From Acidobacteriota bacterium (GTDB lineage: Bacteria; Acidobacteriota; Vicinamibacteria; Vicinamibacterales; CAVVIG01), in the NCBI GenBank assembly GCA_017883165.1, contig JADGOC010000018.1, positions 1 through 38,149 of the forward strand: a stretch of DNA of 38,149 bases, read 5' to 3'. The translations under genes and the position numbers were made by a program. Shown one piece after another: positions 13,199 to 23,139 of this stretch. The notes under the pieces are model-generated. The model had not been told where the DNA came from. It did not search any database and saw only the letters and a list, made by a program, of their open reading frames with translations. How positions within the stretch are numbered: the stretch's first letter is position 1; every line of letters starts with the position of its first letter.

Positions 13199-14599
13199 CT
13201 ACAGCAGGAACCCGGCGATCGTCGCCGTCATGAAATTCGCCAGCGTGCCCGCCAGCATCGCGCGCAGACCGAGGCGCGCCAGATCGTGGCGGCGATTGGG
13301 CGCCAGCGCGCCGATGCCGCCGATCTGAATCCCGATCGAGCTGAAGTTGGCGAACCCGCACAGCGCGAAGGTGGCGATCGTGAACGACTTGGGATCGATC
13401 GCCGACCTCAGCGGCCCGAGCTGCGAGTAGGCCACGAATTCGTTGAGCGCCATGCGCGTGCCGAGGAGGTTGCCGATCGTCGGCGCGTCGCGCCACGGGA
13501 CGCCCATGCTCCAGGCGACCGGCGCGAACACCCAGCCGAAGATCTGCTGGAGGCTGAAGTTCTGGAGGCTGGTCACGCCCATGCGGGCCGCCTGATGGCC
13601 GAACACGCCGAGCACGTAGTTGACGAGCGCGACCAACGCCAAGAATGAAATGAGCATCGCGCCCACGTTGAGCGCGAGGTGCAGCCCTTCGCCCGTCCCG
13701 CGGCCGGCCGCATCGATGACGTTGACGTCGGTCTGCTCCACCTCGAGCCGCACCGTCCCCATCGTCTTCGGCACTTCGGTTTCGGGGACGAACATCTTGG
13801 CCATCATGATCGTGCCGGGCGCGGTCATGATCACGGCCGTCAGGAGATGCTTGGCCTCGATGCCGAACAGAATGTAGGCCGCCATGATGCCACCCGAGAT
13901 GTGCGCCATCCCCGACGTCATCACCGTCATCAGCTCGGATTGCGTCATCTCGGGCAGGTACGGACGGATCGTCAGCGGCGCTTCGGTCTGTCCCATGAAG
14001 ATGCTGGCCGCGACGTTCAGCGACTCCGCCCCGCTCGCCTTCATCACTTTGTGCATGAGCACGGCGAAGATGCGCACCACGATCTGCATGACGCCGAAGT
14101 AATACAGAATCGCGAAGAGCGCCGCGATGAAGATGATCGTCGGCAGCACCTGGAAGGCGAAGATCACGCCGTAGCGCGCGCCTTCGGGCCCGAGCGCGCC
14201 GTTCATCGCGCGGCCCCACACGCCGCTGTCGCCCAGCGGACCGAAGACAAACGCCGCGCCGACGCCGGCAAAGCCGAGAAGCTTGTTGATGCCCGCGCCG
14301 AGCGTCGAGAACACGCGCTGCCCGACCGTCGTCTTGAGGACGATCAGCGCAAAGACGATCTGCAGGCTGAGCCCCCAGGCGACCGTGCGCGCGTCGATCG
14401 CGCGCCGATCGGTCGAGCACGCGTACGCGATCCCGAGAATCACGATCGCGCCGACGAGCGGCTGCGCCTGCGGCACGCCCATCTGCGCGGCGAGCGCGGC
14501 CGCCACCGCCAGCACCGCCGCCGCCGCGACAATGATGAGGTCGGTCTGCTGCGTGCGGCGAGCCGGCCTGCCCGGCGGAGTGTCGAACTGAACAGCCAT
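13199..14599 (-). CDS. Concentrative nucleoside transporter (CNT/NupC family)
   Basis: 466 aa from the ATG at 14599, which shares one base with the deoA stop (TGATG). It is strongly hydrophobic throughout. CNT signatures are present: GQTEAPLTIRPYLPEMT at about 203-219 and ALNEFVAYSQL at about 384-394, the two helix-hairpin regions that bind nucleoside and the coupling ion. VVSG-type regulatory domains are absent. It imports nucleosides with Na+ or H+ into the cytoplasm, where the neighbouring phosphorylases and deaminase degrade them. A palindromic repeat separates it from the PNP gene. Confidence 0.92.
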   Translation of the reverse strand: MAVQFDTPPGRPARRTQQTDLIIVAAAAVLAVAAALAAQMGVPQAQPLVGAIVILGIAYACSTDRRAIDARTVAWGLSLQIVFALIVLKTTVGQRVFSTLGAGINKLLGFAGVGAAFVFGPLGDSGVWGRAMNGALGPEGARYGVIFAFQVLPTIIFIAALFAILYYFGVMQIVVRIFAVLMHKVMKASGAESLNVAASIFMGQTEAPLTIRPYLPEMTQSELMTVMTSGMAHISGGIMAAYILFGIEAKHLLTAVIMTAPGTIMMAKMFVPETEVPKTMGTVRLEVEQTDVNVIDAAGRGTGEGLHLALNVGAMLISFLALVALVNYVLGVFGHQAARMGVTSLQNFSLQQIFGWVFAPVAWSMGVPWRDAPTIGNLLGTRMALNEFVAYSQLGPLRSAIDPKSFTIATFALCGFANFSSIGIQIGGIGALAPNRRHDLARLGLRAMLAGTLANFMTATIAGFLL

Positions 14600-15903
14600 C
14601 AATGCACCTCACCCACGATGAGCGGCCGCGCGGCCGGTCGCGTGTCCCCGATCCCAATCGCCTCCGACGCCCGGCCGATCGCCTGCTGCAGCTTCGCCGG
14701 ATCGCGGTAGTGCAGCTCGAGAATCGGATCGCCTTCACGCACCGCGTCGCCGACGGTCGCCTTGATGATGATGCCGACCGCGGGATCGACCGCGTCGGCC
14801 ACGCGGTCGCGCCCCGCGCCGAGCGACACCGACGCGCGGCCGACCGATTCGGCGTCGAGCCTGGTCACGAATCCGCTCCGCGCCGCCGTGATCGCGTGCC
14901 GCTCGGGCGCCGACGGCAGCCGCGCGTAGTCGTCGGCCACGCGGGGGTCGCCGCCCTGGCGCTCGATGATCCGCCGGAAGCGCTCGAGGCCCTCGCCCGA
15001 CGCGATCGCCTTGCGGACCTGCTGCGCCGCACCCGCGCGATCGGACGCGACGCCGCCCAGCACGAGCATCCGCGCCGTCAGCTCCACCGACACGTCGGTG
15101 AGATCGGCGGGGCCGCGGCCTTTCAGCACCTCGAAGCACTCGATGACCTCGAGGGCGTTGCCGACCGCGCGCCCGAGCGGCACGTCCATCGCCGTGATGA
15201 TCGCCTCGGTACGGACGCCCGATGCGTTGCCGATCGAGACGAGCGACTCGGCCAGCCGGCGCGAATCGGCCTCGGTTTTCATGAACGCGCCGCTGCCGGT
15301 CTTCACGTCGAGCACGAGCGCGTCGATGCCTTCCGCGATCTTCTTGCTCATGATCGACGCGCTGATGAGGGGGATGCTCTCGACCGTGCCGGTCACGTCG
15401 CGCAGCGCGTAGAGGATCTTGTCGGCCGGCGCGATCTGGGCGGTCTGTCCGATCATCGCGCAGCCGACGGCGACGAGCGCGGCCTTCATCTCCTCGAGCG
15501 ACAGCTGCACGCGGAAGCCCGGAATCGCTTCGAGCTTGTCGAGCGTGCCGCCGGTGTGCCCGAGGCCGCGCCCCGACATCATCGGCACGACCAGCCCGCA
15601 TGCGGCGGCGAGCGGCGCGAGGATGAGCGACGTCTTGTCGCCGACACCGCCCGTGCTGTGCTTGTCGACCTTGGCGCCGGGAATCCCGGAGAGATCGACG
15701 CGTTCGCCGGAGTGCACCATCGCGTCGGTGAGCCACGCGGTCTCCTCGGTGCTCATGCCGCGCACGAGAATCGCCATGAGGAGCGCGGAGGCCTGGTAGT
15801 CGGGCAGCGTGCCGTCCGTCACGCCCGTGACGAAAAACCCGATCTCCTCCCGACCCAGCGTGCCGCCGTCCCGCTTCTTGATGATGATGTCGACTGCACG
15901 CAT
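14599..15903 (-). CDS. deoA: Pyrimidine-nucleoside (thymidine) phosphorylase
   Basis: 434 aa from the ATG at 15903. It begins with MRAVDIIIKKRDGG. The phosphate-binding KHSTGGVGDK is at 81-90, MSGRGLGHTGGTLDKLE at 108-124, KTGSGAFM lies mid-protein, and the C-terminal domain ends with a swivel-type region (DAVREGDPILELHYRD). It phosphorolyses thymidine/uridine to base plus (deoxy)ribose-1-phosphate. It is the first gene of the nucleoside operon and is divergent from the HEAT/HD-GYP run across only 27 bp. TATACT lies 9 nt before its start with no Shine-Dalgarno sequence, suggesting a leaderless mRNA. Upstream extension into the HEAT gene region was rejected. Confidence 0.94.
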   Translation of the reverse strand: MRAVDIIIKKRDGGTLGREEIGFFVTGVTDGTLPDYQASALLMAILVRGMSTEETAWLTDAMVHSGERVDLSGIPGAKVDKHSTGGVGDKTSLILAPLAAACGLVVPMMSGRGLGHTGGTLDKLEAIPGFRVQLSLEEMKAALVAVGCAMIGQTAQIAPADKILYALRDVTGTVESIPLISASIMSKKIAEGIDALVLDVKTGSGAFMKTEADSRRLAESLVSIGNASGVRTEAIITAMDVPLGRAVGNALEVIECFEVLKGRGPADLTDVSVELTARMLVLGGVASDRAGAAQQVRKAIASGEGLERFRRIIERQGGDPRVADDYARLPSAPERHAITAARSGFVTRLDAESVGRASVSLGAGRDRVADAVDPAVGIIIKATVGDAVREGDPILELHYRDPAKLQQAIGRASEAIGIGDTRPAARPLIVGEVH

Positions 15904-15912
15904 GCGCCGGGC

Positions 15913-15920
15913 AGTATACT
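15913..15920. promoter_or_regulatory. Palindromic AGTATACT: candidate -10 box for both divergent operons
   Basis: The 27-bp gap between the deoA ATG (15903) and the HEAT-gene ATG (15931) has AGTATACT near its centre. Because it is a palindrome it presents TATACT on both strands, 9 nt before deoA and 10 nt before the HEAT gene. There is no Shine-Dalgarno sequence on either side. Both transcripts would start within a few bases of their start codons. Confidence 0.5.
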
Positions 15921-15930
15921 TCGGGAAACC

Positions 15931-18144
15931 ATGTCTCAGGTTTCTCAGCTGTCCCCGGAATTGGCCCGGGGCGTGCTGCAATTGGCCCGGGCGCTGCTCG
16001 TCGCGGCCCGCAACTGGACGCTCTATCCGCCGGAACATCCGACCGTCGGCCTCTCGGTCGGCCGCTTCACTGACGCGATTCGCCAGTCGTCGATGGGCGC
16101 CGTCTTTTCGCTCGGCATCACACCCGATACGCTGATGGTCGAAGGCACGTTCGCCGACCCCGCCCAGAGCGGCATCGCCGAAGCGGCGCGCCTGCTCCAC
16201 GACTGCGACCTGCTGCGCGTCACGTTTGTCGGCGATGTGCCGACCAACGCCGTTCACGCGTTCCTGCGCGTCGTCACGCTGGATCCGGCGGAGCGCCGCC
16301 AGCTGGGCGGTCCGGCCACGATCTGGGCGACGCAGGGACACCCGTCGCTCGCGCTCGAGCAGATTGACTACGAGAAGGTCCTCGGGCGCGAAGAAGGCGA
16401 GATCACCGAGCCGGCCAGACGCGACGATCTCTGGCGCTCGATCGTCATGTCGATTGCCGGCGGCCAGCAGGCGGTCTTCGACGAGCGCGCGCAAGAGCGC
16501 CTGCTCGCGATCGCCGGCAGCCCGCTCGACATCACCGACCTCGCCGCCGCCGCCATGGCGCCCAAGCGCGCCGTCGACGGCTCGCCGATGATCACCTCGC
16601 AGGCAGCGACCGTGCTGGCCGCCTTCCGCCACCTGACGAGCATCGTCGGCGTGATGGCGCCCGAGCGGATGCCGGAGGTGATGAGCAACCTCGCCACCGC
16701 CGCCACCCGGCTCGACCCGCACGTCGTCATGCGGGTGCTGCAGACCGACGACGATCCGGCGGGCGGCATCGGCGTGGTGCGCGGCGTCGCGGCGGCGTTC
16801 GACGATGCCAAGGTCGCACAGCTGCTGGCGACGTCGCTCGCGATCGACGGTCAGGCGTCAGATCGCCTGGCAACGATTTTCAATACGATCGCGCCGGACG
16901 AGGATCGCAAGCGCCGCGTCCTGACGCTGACGCGCACGTTGCTGAACGAAACCGACTTCGGCAAGTCGGGGCAGTTTCAGGTGCTCTGGACGTCGATGGA
17001 GGAGCTGCTCATCTCCTACAACGACAAGCCGTTCGTGTCGGAGGCGTACCGCTCGGCGCTCGACGGCGTGGGCGAACGCGCCGAACGGATGGCGTCGATC
17101 GATCTACCGGAGGAGCTGTCGGAGTGGATGGACAGTCTCGGCCAGCAGAGTGTCCGCACGCTGTCGGTACGGATGCTGATCGACCTCCTCACCATCGAGA
17201 CCGACGCCGACCGCGCGGGCGACATCGCGCAGGACATGGAGGCGCTCGCCGAGGATCTGCTTATGGCGGGCGCGTACGACGACACGCAGGCCGTGACGCA
17301 GGCGCTCGCCGATCGCGCCGGCTCGGCGGCAGGCGTCGGGCGCGATGCCTGCCGGCATGCGCTCGACACACTCGGCGAATCGCTCGCCATGCTGGAAACG
17401 GCGGCGGTCCTGGGCGAGGTCGACGACAGCGGCTGGGACGCCATTCGCGCGGTCATGCAGATTATCGGGCTGCCAACCATCGAAGTGCTCAAGCCAGTCG
17501 TGGCGGTGGAGCAGGAAACGCTCGCGTCGCGCCGCGCCGAAGAGTTGATCCTGGGATGCGGGCCGGGGGCGGTCATGCGCCTCGGGTCGCTGCTCAGCGA
17601 TCCGCGATGGTTCGCGCAGTGCGCCGGGGCGCGTCTCCTCGGCCGCATCGGCTCCGCGACGGCGGTGCCGCTGCTGCAGCCGCTGCTGAGGCAGAACAAT
17701 CCTCGCGTGATCCGCGAGACGGTGACGGCGCTCGGCAGCATTCCCGATCCGTCGGCGGCGCGCGCGATCCATACGGTGCTGAGGGCGGCCACCGGCGCGG
17801 CGCGCCGCGCGGTCATCGACGCGCTCGTCGCCGACCGCGATCCGCGCGTCGTGCCGATGCTCATCCGGATCCTCGAGGAGAGCCAGCCGCTCGGTAAGGA
17901 TCACGACGTCGTGCTGGAGACGCTCGCCGCGCTCGGCACGGTCGGCAGCGAGACGGCGGTGCCGGCGCTCGCCTCCGCGATCCAGCGCCGCGGGTTCTTC
18001 GGCCGCAAGAAGCTGCGCGCCATCAAGGAACGGGGCGTCGCCGCGCTCGGGAGCATCGGCGGCCCGAAAGCGGACGCGACGCTCGAGCAGGCGTCTAGGA
18101 CCGGCGATCGCATGTTGAAGAAAATCGTCGCGGCAAGAAGATGA
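15931..18144 (+). CDS. HEAT-repeat protein, partner of HD-GYP (copy 1)
   Basis: 737 aa, no signal peptide or membrane span. Residues 10-100 contain an N-terminal domain with LYPPEHP at 31-37 and a later strand (GITPDTLMVEGTF), also found in the next three genes. The middle (about 100-540) is mostly helical with no recognised catalytic motif. Residues about 555-725 are HEAT/armadillo-like repeats (GARLLGRIGSATAVPLLQPL; TVTALGSIPDPSAARAI; VLETLAALGTVGSETAVPAL), an interaction scaffold. The stop overlaps the HD-GYP start by 4 nt (ATGA). The paralogue at 19499-21769 has the same layout. It probably scaffolds or regulates the HD-GYP protein. The function is unknown and inferred only from context. 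Confidence 0.8.
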   Translation: MSQVSQLSPELARGVLQLARALLVAARNWTLYPPEHPTVGLSVGRFTDAIRQSSMGAVFSLGITPDTLMVEGTFADPAQSGIAEAARLLHDCDLLRVTFVGDVPTNAVHAFLRVVTLDPAERRQLGGPATIWATQGHPSLALEQIDYEKVLGREEGEITEPARRDDLWRSIVMSIAGGQQAVFDERAQERLLAIAGSPLDITDLAAAAMAPKRAVDGSPMITSQAATVLAAFRHLTSIVGVMAPERMPEVMSNLATAATRLDPHVVMRVLQTDDDPAGGIGVVRGVAAAFDDAKVAQLLATSLAIDGQASDRLATIFNTIAPDEDRKRRVLTLTRTLLNETDFGKSGQFQVLWTSMEELLISYNDKPFVSEAYRSALDGVGERAERMASIDLPEELSEWMDSLGQQSVRTLSVRMLIDLLTIETDADRAGDIAQDMEALAEDLLMAGAYDDTQAVTQALADRAGSAAGVGRDACRHALDTLGESLAMLETAAVLGEVDDSGWDAIRAVMQIIGLPTIEVLKPVVAVEQETLASRRAEELILGCGPGAVMRLGSLLSDPRWFAQCAGARLLGRIGSATAVPLLQPLLRQNNPRVIRETVTALGSIPDPSAARAIHTVLRAATGAARRAVIDALVADRDPRVVPMLIRILEESQPLGKDHDVVLETLAALGTVGSETAVPALASAIQRRGFFGRKKLRAIKERGVAALGSIGGPKADATLEQASRTGDRMLKKIVAARR

Positions 18145-19496
18145 ACCAGCGCAAGGCCGAAGACCTTGTTCGCCGGCTGGCGGCCGCGCTGCGGGGCACC
18201 GAGCTCTACTCCCCGACGCACCCGCTCGTGCAGCGCGGCATCGATGCGCTCAGCGCCGCGGCGTCGGAGGCGCTGGCCGCGGCGCCCTCGATCGTCATCG
18301 CCTTCATCGGCGACGAGGTCATCGTCGACGCCGTGCGCCTGCCGCGCGGCGCGGCGACGCTCGTCGGCTTCGCGCGCGACCTGCGCGAACGCGACATCGA
18401 GAAGGTGACGTTTACGCGCGGCCTCACGCGCGACGAGCTGCGCGGCCTGATCGCCGCGCTCAGCGAGCGCACCTCGCAGACGCCGCTGCCCGATCGACTG
18501 ACCGCGCGCGGCATCCGCCACGTGACGCTCGGCAGAGTCGTCATCGAAGAGGTCAGCGACGATCAGACGGGCATCGCCGCCGCGCAGCGCATCTACGGGA
18601 CGGCCGTCGAGACGGCCGAGACGCTGTGGCAGGCGGCCAAGGCGGGCGATCAGCCGGATACGGGCGCGGCGCGCAAGATCATCGACGGCCTCGCGCGTCT
18701 GGTCACCCAGGATCGCACGTCGCTCATGGCGCTCACCGCGCTCAAGAAATACGACAACTACACCTTCACGCACATGGTGAACGTGTCGGCGCTGGCCATG
18801 GCCCAGGCGCGCGCGCTCAACGTCGACGGTGCGCTCCTGCGCGAGTTCGGCTTCGCGGCGCTGATGCACGACATCGGAAAGGTCCACACGCCGCTCGAGG
18901 TGCTCAACAAGCCCGACAAGCTCACGAAGGAAGAATTCGACATCATGAAGCGGCACGTCGTTGACGGCGCGCACATTCTGCGCCGCACGCCCGAAATGCC
19001 GGCGCTCGCGCCCATCGTCGCCTTCGAGCACCATCTCAAGCAGGATCTCAGCGGCTACCCGGAGAAGATCGGCAGCCGCAAGCTCAATCTCTGCACGATG
19101 ATCGTCAGCATCGCCGACGTCTTCGACGCGCTGCGCAGCAACCGGCCGTATCGGCAGGGTCTGGCGACGGCGCGCATCCGCTCGATCATGGGTGAGCAAG
19201 GCAACCCGGCGTTCAACCAGACGCTGCTGAAGCGGTTCGTCAACCTGATGGGCCTGTTTCCGGTCGGCAACCTCGTGCGGCTGAACACGGACGAGATTGC
19301 CGTCGTCACCGCCGAGCACCCGACCGACCCCTTCAGACCGCAGGTGAAGATCATCATGGACGCAAAGGGCGACACGGTCGAAGAGCCGCTGCTCGCCAAC
19401 ACGTGGGATCGGGACAGCAAGGGCGAGCATCCGCGCGCGGTGGTCGAGGCGGTCGATCCGGAACCGCTCGGCATCGATCCGCTGAAATACCTCTGA
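18141..19496 (+). CDS. HD-GYP domain protein, copy 1, with altered GYP motif
   Basis: 451 aa. Residues 1-135 are the shared N-terminal domain (LYSPTHP at 22-28; FIGDEVIVDAVRL). The HD-GYP domain follows: H211 (FTHMVNVS), H243/D244 in LMHDIGK, H272 (MKRHVVDGAHIL), H297/H298 (FEHHLKQD) and SGYP at 304-307. The usual motif HHExxDGxGYP reads HHLKQDLSGYP, so Glu is Leu299 and the first Gly is Leu303. Metal ligands appear to be kept. HD-GYP enzymes hydrolyse c-di-GMP (or cGAMP) to nucleotides. The altered loop could weaken this or change substrate. It is coupled to the HEAT gene upstream (ATGA) and lies 2 bp before the next HEAT gene. Confidence 0.88.
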   Translation: MNQRKAEDLVRRLAAALRGTELYSPTHPLVQRGIDALSAAASEALAAAPSIVIAFIGDEVIVDAVRLPRGAATLVGFARDLRERDIEKVTFTRGLTRDELRGLIAALSERTSQTPLPDRLTARGIRHVTLGRVVIEEVSDDQTGIAAAQRIYGTAVETAETLWQAAKAGDQPDTGAARKIIDGLARLVTQDRTSLMALTALKKYDNYTFTHMVNVSALAMAQARALNVDGALLREFGFAALMHDIGKVHTPLEVLNKPDKLTKEEFDIMKRHVVDGAHILRRTPEMPALAPIVAFEHHLKQDLSGYPEKIGSRKLNLCTMIVSIADVFDALRSNRPYRQGLATARIRSIMGEQGNPAFNQTLLKRFVNLMGLFPVGNLVRLNTDEIAVVTAEHPTDPFRPQVKIIMDAKGDTVEEPLLANTWDRDSKGEHPRAVVEAVDPEPLGIDPLKYL

Positions 19497-19498
19497 CC

Positions 19499-21769
19499 AT
19501 GGCGGACGACACCGAGGCCCCCGCTCCGCTCGCGCCTGAAGAGGCGGCCCGGCTCACCGACTTTGCGCGCGCGTGCAAGGCGGCCGCGCGCGCCGTCATG
19601 CTCTACCCGGTCGGGCATCCGGCGATCACCGCGACCCTCGGCCGCATCGTGCAGGTCACCTCTCCCACCAACCTCCGCTCCCCACTGAAGGTGAGCGTGC
19701 TGCCTGACGCGCTGCTGCTCGACGGCCGCGCGCCGGCGCGCCCTGATCAGGCCCTCGCCGAGCTCGCCGTCCTCTTGCACGATCACATGGTCGGCGAGCT
19801 GATCGTGCATCCGGGCGGCGACCTCGAGGCTTGGCGCAATTTCCTGCTGCTCGTCGGCCGGTCGGCGGAATCGGTCCGCGGGGAAGGCGGCATCGCCCGC
19901 CTGTGGACGACGATGGCCGGCCGCCACGTGGAGTTGCGCGAGATCGACTACGCGGAAGTGCTGCGCGAGCGCAGCGGCGGGGGATCGGCGACGTGGGACA
20001 AGGTCATCGCCAGCTGTCTGCAGGGCGACGCCTTCGCGCTCGACGACGAAGCGATCCGGGCCCTGCTCGATATTGTCGGCGACGCCGATCGGCTCGGCGA
20101 TCTCATGGCGGCGCTCGAAACGCGCGGGACCGAGGGCGGCGCGGGGGTCGGCGCGAAAACGACTGCCCTCCTGCGCATGCTGCACGGCATCGTCGAGGCG
20201 GTGTCGAAGAGCGAACCCGAGCGGCTGGATCCGGTGCTGCGCAACATGGCGTCCGCCGTCGGGCAGCTCTCCCCCGACATGATGATGGGCCTGCTTGCGC
20301 ACGGCAGCGGCACCCAAGGCGACACCGACGATGAAGAGACGCCGCGGCTCGTCAGCGCCGTGGTCAGCCGCATGTCGGAAGGGACGATTGCGCGGTTTGT
20401 CTCACGCAGCGTCATGACCGAGGGAACGGCGAGCAATCGCCTCGCCCAGGCGTTTCAGGCGCTCGTGCGCGACGTCGATCAGCGCGAGCGGATGCTGGCG
20501 CTCGCGCACGACGATCTCGCGGCGTCGCCGCTCGGTCGCACCGAGGAATTTCGGGGGGTCTGGAACCACATCACTGAAAAGCTGCTGACATCGTACTCGG
20601 ACGAGCCCTACGTGTCCGACCCCTACGGCCGTGAGTTGTCGCACGCCAGAACGCAAGCCATTCAGGTCGAACAGGTCAACGACGATCCGCCCGAACGGAT
20701 GACCGCCTGGATAAGCACGGTGGCGACGACGGCGCTGCGGGCGCTCGATTTGACGCTGCTCCTCGACCTGCTGCGGATCGAGCCCGACCCCGAGCGCTGG
20801 AAAGGGCTGATGACGCCGGTTGTCAGGCTGCTCGAGGATCTGCTGCTCGTCGGCGACTTCGAGGCGGCCGAGGAGCTCGTCGCCGTGCTGGTGCGCGAGG
20901 CCGGGCCGGGGGGGCATGACGCGCGGCGGCAGGCCGCGATCAACGCGATTGACACGCTGGTCGCGGGATCGATGATGCACCACATCGTCACGCACTTGGC
21001 GGCGATCGACGATGCGCAGTTCGCGCGCGTGAAGGCGATGTGCCTGTCGCTCGGAGAAGTCGTCGTGCGGCCGATCGCCGAGGCGCTGTCGACCGAGGAG
21101 AACAGCCGGACGCGCGAGCGGCTCACCGCGATCATCATCGCGCTCGGCGCGGTGGCGCGGCGGACGGTCGAGCGGCTCAAGAGCTCGCCGAACGCCGCCG
21201 TGCGGCGCACGGCGGTCGTGCTGCTGCGCCAGTTCGGCGGAAGCGAGGCGCTGCCCGACCTCACCGAGCTGCTCGACGACAGCGAGCCGCAGGTGCAGCG
21301 CGAAGCGGTGCGGGCGATCCTCAACATCGGCACCGATCACGCGTACCGCACGCTCGAGCAGGCGCTGGCGAGCGGCACCACGCGGTCGCGCGAGGCAATC
21401 ATGCAGGCGATTAGCAGCCTGCGCGACGAGCGCGCCGTCCCGCTCTTCACCTACATCCTCGGCCACGTCGATCACCGCGGGGCGCTCGGCACGATCTATC
21501 TGCGCGCGGTCGAATCGCTCGGCGCGCTCAAGGATCCCGACAGCATCGCGCCGCTGAAGGACGTCCTCTATCGCGGCGAGTGGTGGGCTCCGCGCCGCAC
21601 GGCGACGCTCAGAACGGCGGCGGCCGTCGCGCTCGCGCGGATCGGCACGCCCGAGGCGCGCGCCGTGCTGGAACAGGCGGCCGCCGCCGGATCGCGCGGG
21701 GTGCGGGCGGCCGCGCGCGCTCACGCCGCGCCGAGCCGCGGCCGCGCAGGACGGGAGGCGCGCCGATGA
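19499..21769 (+). CDS. HEAT-repeat protein, partner of HD-GYP (copy 2)
   Basis: 756 aa from the ATG at 19499, 2 bp after the upstream stop. A longer frame from 19403 runs inside the HD-GYP gene and was rejected. The N-terminal domain has LYPVGHP at 35-41 and VLPDALLLDGRAP. The middle aligns by eye with copy 1: EFRGVWNHITEKLLTSYSDEPYVS against QFQVLWTSMEELLISYNDKPFVS, and LLLDLLRIEPD against LIDLLTIETD. HEAT repeats run from about 543 to the end (AVRRTAVVLLRQFGGSEALPD and following). The C-terminus becomes Ala/Arg-rich. The stop overlaps the next HD-GYP start (ATGA). No enzyme motif was found. It is a paralogue of the 15931-18144 product. Confidence 0.8.
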   Translation: MADDTEAPAPLAPEEAARLTDFARACKAAARAVMLYPVGHPAITATLGRIVQVTSPTNLRSPLKVSVLPDALLLDGRAPARPDQALAELAVLLHDHMVGELIVHPGGDLEAWRNFLLLVGRSAESVRGEGGIARLWTTMAGRHVELREIDYAEVLRERSGGGSATWDKVIASCLQGDAFALDDEAIRALLDIVGDADRLGDLMAALETRGTEGGAGVGAKTTALLRMLHGIVEAVSKSEPERLDPVLRNMASAVGQLSPDMMMGLLAHGSGTQGDTDDEETPRLVSAVVSRMSEGTIARFVSRSVMTEGTASNRLAQAFQALVRDVDQRERMLALAHDDLAASPLGRTEEFRGVWNHITEKLLTSYSDEPYVSDPYGRELSHARTQAIQVEQVNDDPPERMTAWISTVATTALRALDLTLLLDLLRIEPDPERWKGLMTPVVRLLEDLLLVGDFEAAEELVAVLVREAGPGGHDARRQAAINAIDTLVAGSMMHHIVTHLAAIDDAQFARVKAMCLSLGEVVVRPIAEALSTEENSRTRERLTAIIIALGAVARRTVERLKSSPNAAVRRTAVVLLRQFGGSEALPDLTELLDDSEPQVQREAVRAILNIGTDHAYRTLEQALASGTTRSREAIMQAISSLRDERAVPLFTYILGHVDHRGALGTIYLRAVESLGALKDPDSIAPLKDVLYRGEWWAPRRTATLRTAAAVALARIGTPEARAVLEQAAAAGSRGVRAAARAHAAPSRGRAGREARR

Positions 21770-23139
21770 GCTCGCCGCGCCAGCAGCTCGCCGACGAGAT
21801 CCTCCGCCGCTTCGCCGCGGCGCTCCGTTCGTCGCAGCTTTATTCGGCCGGCCATCCGATCATCGCGCGCAATCTCGAAGGGCTCACGACCGCGATGCAG
21901 CTGCTGCACGCGATCGAGCCGGCGATCGTCATCGGCGTGGTCGGCGAGGAGATCATCGTCGACGACATGCCGATCGCAAAGGCGGACACGCAGGGCTCGC
22001 TCATCCGAAGACTGCAGCAGAGCGGCGTGGAGCGCATGACGATCGAACGGGGCGTCACCGGCGACGAGATCGCCGCATTTGTCGACGCCATGTCGAAAGT
22101 CCAGCCGCGAACGGGCAACGAGGAAGCAGCACCGTTCCCTGCGCTGCCGCACATTCGTGTCGGCCGCGTCAACATCGAGCAGCGGATCGAGGGCAGCCTC
22201 GCCGACATGGCGGCGATCCGGCGCCTCTATAACGACGCGGTCTCGGTCGCCGGCGACGTCTGGACCAGCGCGCAAACCGAGCAGAAGCCCGATGCGACGA
22301 TGGCGCGGACGATGATCGACGGGCTGGCGCAGGCGGTCGCGCAGAACCGTACCGCGCTCCTCGCGCTGACGACGCTCAAGAACTACGACAACTACACGTT
22401 CACACACATGGTGAACGTCTCGATTCTCACGATGGGCCAGGCGCGCGGCCTGGGGATCGACGGGCCGCTGCTGCGCGAGTTCGGCCTCGCCGCGCTGATG
22501 CACGACATCGGCAAAGTGCGTACGCCGCTCGAGGTGCTCAACAAGCCGGACAAGCTGACCGACGAGGAATTCACCATCATGAAACGGCACGTCGTCGACG
22601 GCGCAGAGATTCTGCGGCAGACGCCGGACATTCCGGCGCTCGCGCCGGTGGTGGCCTTCGAGCACCACCTGCGCCTGGACGGTACCGGCTACCCGCACGA
22701 AATCCGCCGCCCGTCGCTCAATCTGGGCACGATGCTCTGTGGCATCGCCGACGTGTACGATGCGATGCGCTCGCAGCGCCGGTACCAGCAGGCGTTTCCG
22801 ACCGAGCGCATCCTGGAAGTCCTGAAGCGCAACGACGGCACGCAGTTCGACCAGCATCTGATCCGCCGATTCGTCCAGCTCATTGGCATCTACCCGGCCG
22901 GCAATCTCGTGAAGCTCGACTCGGGAGAAATCGCCGTCGTGCTGAAGGTGTACGCGCCCGATCCGTATCGCCCGCAGGTGCGCGTCCTGTTCGATCGGCT
23001 CGGGAAGCGTCTGGATCTCGCCTACGACATCAACCTGTGGGAAAGCGACGGCGCCGACGGCCAGCCCAGCTCGATCGTCGCGCCGCTCGATCCGGCCGAC
23101 TATCAAGTGGACCCGCTGGCGCTCATGTCGATGACGTAG
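21766..23139 (+). CDS. HD-GYP domain protein, copy 2 (c-di-GMP phosphodiesterase-like)
   Basis: 457 aa from the ATG at 21766. The N-terminal shared domain has LYSAGHP at 25-31 and VVGEEIIVDDMPI. HD-GYP residues: H214, H246/D247 in LMHDIGK, H275 (MKRHVVDGAEIL), H300/H301 and DGTGYP at 305-310. The Gly lost in copy 1 is kept here, while the Glu after HH is Leu in both copies. The CxxD-type helix IADVYDAMRSQRRY follows. It is closely similar to copy 1 over the whole length, so the HEAT+HD-GYP pair was duplicated as a unit. It likely degrades c-di-GMP in the cytoplasm. The following MGMT-like gene starts 1 nt after its stop. Confidence 0.9.
   Translation: MSSPRQQLADEILRRFAAALRSSQLYSAGHPIIARNLEGLTTAMQLLHAIEPAIVIGVVGEEIIVDDMPIAKADTQGSLIRRLQQSGVERMTIERGVTGDEIAAFVDAMSKVQPRTGNEEAAPFPALPHIRVGRVNIEQRIEGSLADMAAIRRLYNDAVSVAGDVWTSAQTEQKPDATMARTMIDGLAQAVAQNRTALLALTTLKNYDNYTFTHMVNVSILTMGQARGLGIDGPLLREFGLAALMHDIGKVRTPLEVLNKPDKLTDEEFTIMKRHVVDGAEILRQTPDIPALAPVVAFEHHLRLDGTGYPHEIRRPSLNLGTMLCGIADVYDAMRSQRRYQQAFPTERILEVLKRNDGTQFDQHLIRRFVQLIGIYPAGNLVKLDSGEIAVVLKVYAPDPYRPQVRVLFDRLGKRLDLAYDINLWESDGADGQPSSIVAPLDPADYQVDPLALMSMT

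Follow-up and report, generated by a model that had tools for sequence, protein, structure and literature searches.

HD-GYP proteins are commonly taken as lone phosphodiesterases carrying a fused sensor. Here we describe two consecutive gene pairs, each encoding a HEAT-repeat protein (HEAT1, HEAT2) followed by an HD-GYP protein (GYP1, GYP2), in a 38,149-nucleotide stretch of DNA from an Acidobacteriota bacterium of the order Vicinamibacterales (assembly GCA_017883165.1, contig JADGOC010000018.1, positions 1 to 38,149; hereafter the window). The partnership of the two gene types is well supported by genomics, and all four proteins begin with a shared N-terminal domain (the N-domain). Among described HD-GYP proteins, PmGH (4mcw/4mdz/4me4), PA4781 (4r8z) and V-cGAP3 (5z7c) share with GYP1 and GYP2 the catalytic domain, the metal ligands and the GYP motif, but none matched the N-domain and no paper we found describes a HEAT partner for them. 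DvhD (9rbz, 9rc0), an HD-GYP domain in Desulfovibrio signalling and a structural match to GYP2, differs in being a PAS plus HD-GYP receptor for cyclic dimeric guanosine monophosphate (c-di-GMP) from an adhesin-control operon, with no HEAT partner described (PMC13090378). Bd1817 (3tm8/3tmb), which the GYP2 model matches best in structure (Z 25.4; root-mean-square deviation 3.0 over 224 residues; model residues 143-374), differs in being catalytically inactive and lacking the GYP tyrosine (PMC4159591). On the HEAT side, the PBS-lyase-type repeat proteins NblB and CpcE resemble HEAT1 and HEAT2 in having C-terminal repeats of the same kind, but only these repeats are covered, with 30.6 and 42.5 bits, far under the family cut-offs (300 for NblB).

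A precedent for the arrangement comes from Vibrio vulnificus, in which the adjacent proteins RcbA and RcbB interact through a shared N-terminal repeat domain and one controls the c-di-GMP enzyme of the other: RcbA, itself non-catalytic, binds RcbB through this domain and releases its activity (PMC12282931). As in the window, adjacent genes encode proteins with one common N-terminal domain type; RcbB, however, is a GGDEF cyclase, and its shared domain is of the TPR type (PMC12282931). Pfam matched neither TPR nor GGDEF in any of the four window proteins. The likeness is one of mechanism, not of family: such a mechanism exists, which does not make the window locus a member.

The first-pass annotation had read the locus as HEAT, HD-GYP, HEAT and HD-GYP genes for proteins of 737, 451, 756 and 457 amino acids, with an ATGA overlap inside each pair and a 2-bp spacer between the pairs. 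On recheck, this order and these lengths were exact to the base, and both overlaps and the spacer (2 nt, 19497-19498) were seen in the sequence. The features are as follows.

15931-18144, + strand: HEAT1, N-domain plus alpha-solenoid/HEAT repeats, 737 amino acids, first gene of pair 1 (translation; Pfam HEAT_2, 4e-14; type-1 HEAT clade).
15967-16383, + strand: N-domain of HEAT1, motif LYPPEHP (match to profile A1, E 4.9e-41, not independent as A1 was built with the HEAT1 sequence included; independent profile comparisons).
18141-18144, + strand: ATGA stop/start overlap of HEAT1 and GYP1 (sequence).
18141-19496, + strand: GYP1, N-domain plus HD-GYP plus C-terminal beta domain, 451 amino acids, DLSGYP (translation; Pfam HD_5, 3.5e-19; metal ligands kept).
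18147-18554, + strand: N-domain of GYP1 (match to profile A1; profile comparison).
18714-19256, + strand: HD-GYP catalytic domain of GYP1, limits approximate (alignment A2; Pfam).
19499-21769, + strand: HEAT2, N-domain plus alpha-solenoid/HEAT repeats, 756 amino acids, first gene of pair 2 (translation; Pfam HEAT_2, 1.7e-18; AlphaFold2 (AF2) model, predicted local distance difference test (pLDDT) 90.5).
19544-19963, + strand: N-domain of HEAT2 (match to profile A1; AF2 elements, residues 13-148).
19985-21763, + strand: alpha-solenoid of HEAT2, residues 163-755 (AF2 secondary structure; Foldseek).
21766-21769, + strand: ATGA stop/start overlap of HEAT2 and GYP2 (sequence).
21766-23139, + strand: GYP2, N-domain plus HD-GYP plus C-terminal beta domain, 457 amino acids, DGTGYP intact (translation; Pfam HD_5, 5.2e-20; AF2 pLDDT 92.8).
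21781-22182, + strand: N-domain of GYP2 (match to profile A1; AF2 elements, residues 4-133).
22348-22890, + strand: HD-GYP catalytic domain of GYP2, residues ~195-375 (PmGH alignment; conservation; structural match to 3tmb, 4mcw and 4r8z).

The 4-nt ATGA overlap between the HEAT and GYP genes was found again in many relatives, and it couples the genes within each pair translationally.

A domain common to the four N-termini had been proposed from alignment by eye. Single-sequence BLAST between HEAT and GYP N-domains was not significant (best E 0.027), so profiles were needed for this alignment, and they bore the proposal out: the N-terminal segments did align, with E values of 1.3e-11 for HEAT1 against GYP1 and 2.1e-10 for HEAT2 against GYP2. 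Deeper profiles, built from 123 HEAT-type and 105 GYP-type domains, gave an E value of 1.8e-29 over 139 columns (probability 99.8%). The AF2 models predict an identical order of elements in HEAT2 and GYP2 (a-a-b-b-a-b-a-b). Within the LYxxxHP motif, all of 61 HEAT proteins have the Tyr and nearly all have the His, and the GYP proteins keep them in 59/60 (Tyr) and 53/60 (His). Judged by profiles and predicted topology, the HEAT and GYP N-domains are homologous.

The identity of the N-domain with a known family was rejected. Over the first 130 residues, none of the four window proteins had a credible Pfam match, and the 22 members of profile A1 that were scanned had weak, scattered matches only, DUF3391 not being among them. 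In GYP2, the model of DUF3391, which marks another type of HD-GYP protein, reached 12.5 bits (E 0.23) against a cut-off of 27.8. A profile search of the PDB with the N-domain returned just biased or short partial matches; whole-model structure searches were filled by HD and solenoid matches, so that they barely probed the N-domain fold itself.

The N-domain profile matched genomes of Acidobacteriota (64/199), Gemmatimonadota (41/61), Omnitrophota (24/78), Planctomycetota (29/79) and a Desulfuromonadota/Desulfobacterota sample (46/99), and none of 120 sampled Pseudomonadota genomes. Of the matches in the Acidobacteriota and Desulfuromonadota samples, 65-70% lay in same-strand pairs spaced 1.3-2.4 kb apart. 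We then counted those N-domain HD-GYP genes that had enough upstream sequence. A HEAT/N-domain gene was directly upstream in 115/115 and then, in Omnitrophota and Planctomycetota, in 18/18, a total of 133/133 in which the figures are genes and not independent events. Among HD-GYP genes without the N-domain, which served as a control, such a neighbour occurred in 1/36, and that one was the broken GYP1 of locus L028. Chance adjacency was rejected because the linkage holds over five phyla and the negative control lacks it. Both window pairs conform to the pattern, with the N-domain in both proteins and the HEAT gene as the immediate upstream neighbour in the same orientation.

In the other direction the linkage is less strict. 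An HD-GYP gene follows 109 of the 143 N-domain HEAT genes, a set in which lone genes are over-sampled, having been fetched deliberately; the other 34 are alone or fused. The expectation that the two gene types would co-occur rather than scatter thus held without exception for the HD-GYP side and more loosely for the HEAT side. The dependence is one-sided: N-domain HD-GYP genes are tied to HEAT genes, and not the reverse. Because N-domain HEAT genes exist without an HD-GYP partner, the N-domain is not solely a hetero-pairing domain. The two proteins could accordingly act in one pathway without binding each other by their N-domains, which would instead form homodimers or recognise some third component or small molecule shared by both proteins. 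We rate this as the lesser but still appreciable prospect. It fits the unpartnered HEAT genes, which adjoin STAS, histidine-kinase or plain HD genes, the tandem N-domains seen in single polypeptides, and the retention of LYxxxHP in both families, as a shared binding site would predict. Binding to a third party alone would not, however, demand that an HD-GYP protein with the N-domain never be found without a HEAT gene.

Fusion proteins add to this picture. In Desulfuromonadota/Desulfobacterota, Pfam identified proteins composed of GGDEF, an AAA_16 ATPase, one or two N-domains and HEAT repeats (L194 5500-9771, L197 5435-9073 and L200 567-4109); a further one (L196 5313-9608) was assigned to the GGDEF-AAA-N-domain-HEAT fusions by the same architecture. 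Two N-domain HEAT proteins end in cNMP-binding and PilZ domains (L195 6984-12053 and L202 6815-9673). These fusions to GGDEF and PilZ put the HEAT half, and not just the HD-GYP half, in c-di-GMP signalling. As proof of hetero-pairing the fusions were rejected, the tandem N-domains of the GGDEF-AAA proteins not falling into a HEAT-like copy and a GYP-like one.

Both HD-GYP proteins scored above the curated cut-offs for HD domains (GYP1 and GYP2, respectively: PF13487 (HD_5), 69.6 and 72.3 bits vs 27.2; PF01966, 59.9 and 51.4 bits vs 22). In the AF2 model of GYP2, a long helix connects the N-domain to the HD-GYP domain (~195-375), which is followed by a small beta domain; over the HD-GYP part the model matches Bd1817, DvhD, PmGH and PA4781. 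Alignment with PmGH places the metal ligands of GYP2 at H214, H246, D247, H275, H300, H301 and D329, and the catalytic lysine at K250. Metal ligands and lysine are kept in 57-60 of 60 family members, and the GYP motif in 55-58 of 60. At the position of PmGH E185, the N-domain HD-GYP family has Tyr, whereas PmGH, which is trinuclear, has Glu; Tyr or Phe at this position characterizes a predicted binuclear subgroup (PMC4159591), whose metal ligands are all retained in GYP1 and GYP2. The GYP motif reads DGTGYP in GYP2 and DLSGYP in GYP1, with DG replaced by DL. Because the ligands, the lysine and the GYP motif are conserved, GYP1 and GYP2 are predicted to be active metal-dependent phosphodiesterases.

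It is conceivable that the HD-GYP part acts as a cyclic-dinucleotide receptor instead. Each pair would then be an effector complex for reading c-di-GMP, in the manner of DvhD. The HD-GYP domain of DvhD binds c-di-GMP as a receptor in Desulfovibrio (PMC13090378), and HHL or HHM stands in place of HHE in the N-domain HD-GYP family. We nevertheless regard a receptor role as distinctly unlikely: PmGH is disabled by loss of its ligands or catalytic lysine (PMC4159591), and nearly all family members, including both window copies, have kept them.

The substrate could also be another cyclic dinucleotide, such as 3',3'-cyclic GMP-AMP (3',3'-cGAMP), leaving the partnership as proposed and altering the signal. 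V-cGAP3, a cGAMP phosphodiesterase, ranks second by sequence among the solved relatives, and in Geobacter, one of the lineages in which the pair occurs, cGAMP is known to be made by Hypr-type synthesis (PMC8835794); the c-di-GMP enzyme PmGH, however, outscores V-cGAP3, and we consider a different substrate unlikely. GGDEF domains were present in 36/36 genomes tested, nearly all of which have N-domain proteins, and the idea that the substrate is not a cyclic dinucleotide because GGDEF is missing was rejected.

HEAT1 and HEAT2 passed the HEAT_2 model at 53.1 and 67.1 bits (cut-off 27.7), with HEAT_2/HEAT_PBS matched in both. In the AF2 model of HEAT2, residues 163-755 are helices only, a stretch longer than the Pfam HEAT matches, and its Foldseek matches are HEAT, alphaRep and armadillo solenoids.

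Taken together, we think it probable, with considerable room for doubt, that each pair encodes a cyclic-dinucleotide phosphodiesterase module of two subunits, with the HEAT protein as dedicated partner and regulator and with assembly probably through the N-domain. The HD-GYP subunit would be an active metal-dependent phosphodiesterase with c-di-GMP as its most likely target. The HEAT subunit would be its obligate partner, probably docking by the shared N-domain, and the long solenoid may bind a further protein or ligand, as input or anchor, so that the phosphodiesterase is switched or positioned. We infer the physical heteromer, the regulation of activity by the HEAT protein, c-di-GMP as substrate, the solenoid ligand and the input signal. 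Since the duplicated pairs have diverged, the four window genes probably form two modules that differ in input or set-point.

Several points weigh against this proposal. GYP1 carries DLSGYP, and the HHE motif of the family is mostly HHL or HHM. The adjacency across phyla reflects genes rather than independent events, and N-domain HEAT genes do occur without an HD-GYP partner. The tandem N-domains score either about alike on the two types or nearer to the HEAT one, and so reveal no fused hetero-pair. GGDEF domains are common, which makes their presence in 36/36 genomes weak evidence for the substrate.

The mutual alignment of the two HEAT and of the two GYP proteins, claimed in the first-pass annotation, is borne out by 27% identity for HEAT1/HEAT2 (712 amino acids, E 5e-67) and 48% for GYP1/GYP2 (450 amino acids, E 4e-152). 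The further claim of a duplication of the whole pair as one unit gained support from reciprocal, congruent clades: with HEAT and GYP proteins from 59 pairs, each of the two trees divides into a type-1 and a type-2 clade, branching largely matches and the distance correlation is 0.94. The matching clades indicate block copying of the pair, and by the trees this duplication predates the split of the sampled Vicinamibacterales families. In several genomes pair 2 was found without pair 1, most plausibly because pair 1 was lost. In L028 (2417-5753), HEAT1 and GYP1 are spread over more than one reading frame, pair 2 being whole, likely through decay of pair 1 or an assembly error. A tandem HEAT-GYP-HEAT-GYP array resembling that of the window occurs in a Gemmatimonadota genome (L220 3145-9396).

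Around the window locus, the HEAT1 start codon lies only 27 bp (15904-15930) from the start of a divergent pyrimidine nucleoside phosphorylase gene (14599-15903, - strand). The upstream divergent genes, nupC and deoA, are kept in the syntenic locus across Vicinamibacterales. Downstream, an alkyltransferase-like gene, an extracytoplasmic function (ECF) sigma factor and a zinc-finger anti-sigma gene are found across the order, with variable genes between. A fifth operon member was rejected, as the genes that separate GYP2 from the alkyltransferase-like gene in relatives vary and are mutually unrelated. No riboswitch or other RNA reached the gathering threshold in the window, and a promoter and terminator scan of the window gave no more promoter candidates than shuffled sequences did.

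Other neighbourhoods were observed among relatives. Beside lone N-domain HEAT genes we found a STAS gene (L150 5471-5827), a plain HD-domain gene (L152 7626-8354) and a histidine kinase (L172 10447-11607). A small convergent HEAT gene (~150-260 amino acids) lies opposite the GYP end in Desulfuromonadales and Omnitrophota (L130, L131, L183, L184, L190 and L240-L243). A second pair type in Gemmatimonadota sits between trpB and trpA in 6/6 fetched loci (L224, L225, L231, L232, L235 and L239), in the order trpC-trpF-trpB-HEAT-GYP-trpA, trpF not being detected in L225. In Omnitrophota, the pair is directly downstream of trpA in L040, L240 and L241, with trpB and trpF also present where the contig is long enough. 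In L244-L248 of the same phylum it stands beside pyrG (CTP synthase), mostly with carA/carB (carbamoyl-phosphate synthase) and glutamate-synthase-like genes, names that were read by eye from the sequence.

We found no such pair in the open-access literature on HEAT repeats with HD-GYP or c-di-GMP; subscription papers were mostly outside this search, and an earlier description is possible. The system is probably a familiar enzyme family in an undescribed, widespread and obligate partnership with an unnamed shared domain. A bolder view, to which we give a small chance, is that the N-domain is an unrecognised assembly module of cyclic-dinucleotide signalling and that, through the HEAT/HD-GYP pair, the breakdown of c-di-GMP follows biosynthetic status. 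The module would then have been missed by work on model organisms because it is absent from the 120 Pseudomonadota genomes, and the HEAT protein may sense a metabolite or biosynthetic enzyme, since pairs adjoin trp, pyrG/carAB and nucleoside phosphorylase/transporter genes.

The window thus presents a soil-bacterium locus with two copies of a pair in which an HD-GYP subfamily, found in at least five phyla, is linked, each gene to its own neighbour, with a separate HEAT protein by a domain for which we found neither a Pfam name nor a solved structure. If the two proteins form a complex, the Tyr and His of LYxxxHP would be direct targets for mutagenesis, and the pairs in trp and pyr surroundings would allow a connection of biosynthesis with second-messenger turnover to be tested. 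If the complex is real, many proteins now labelled merely as HEAT repeat or HD domain would gain a function.

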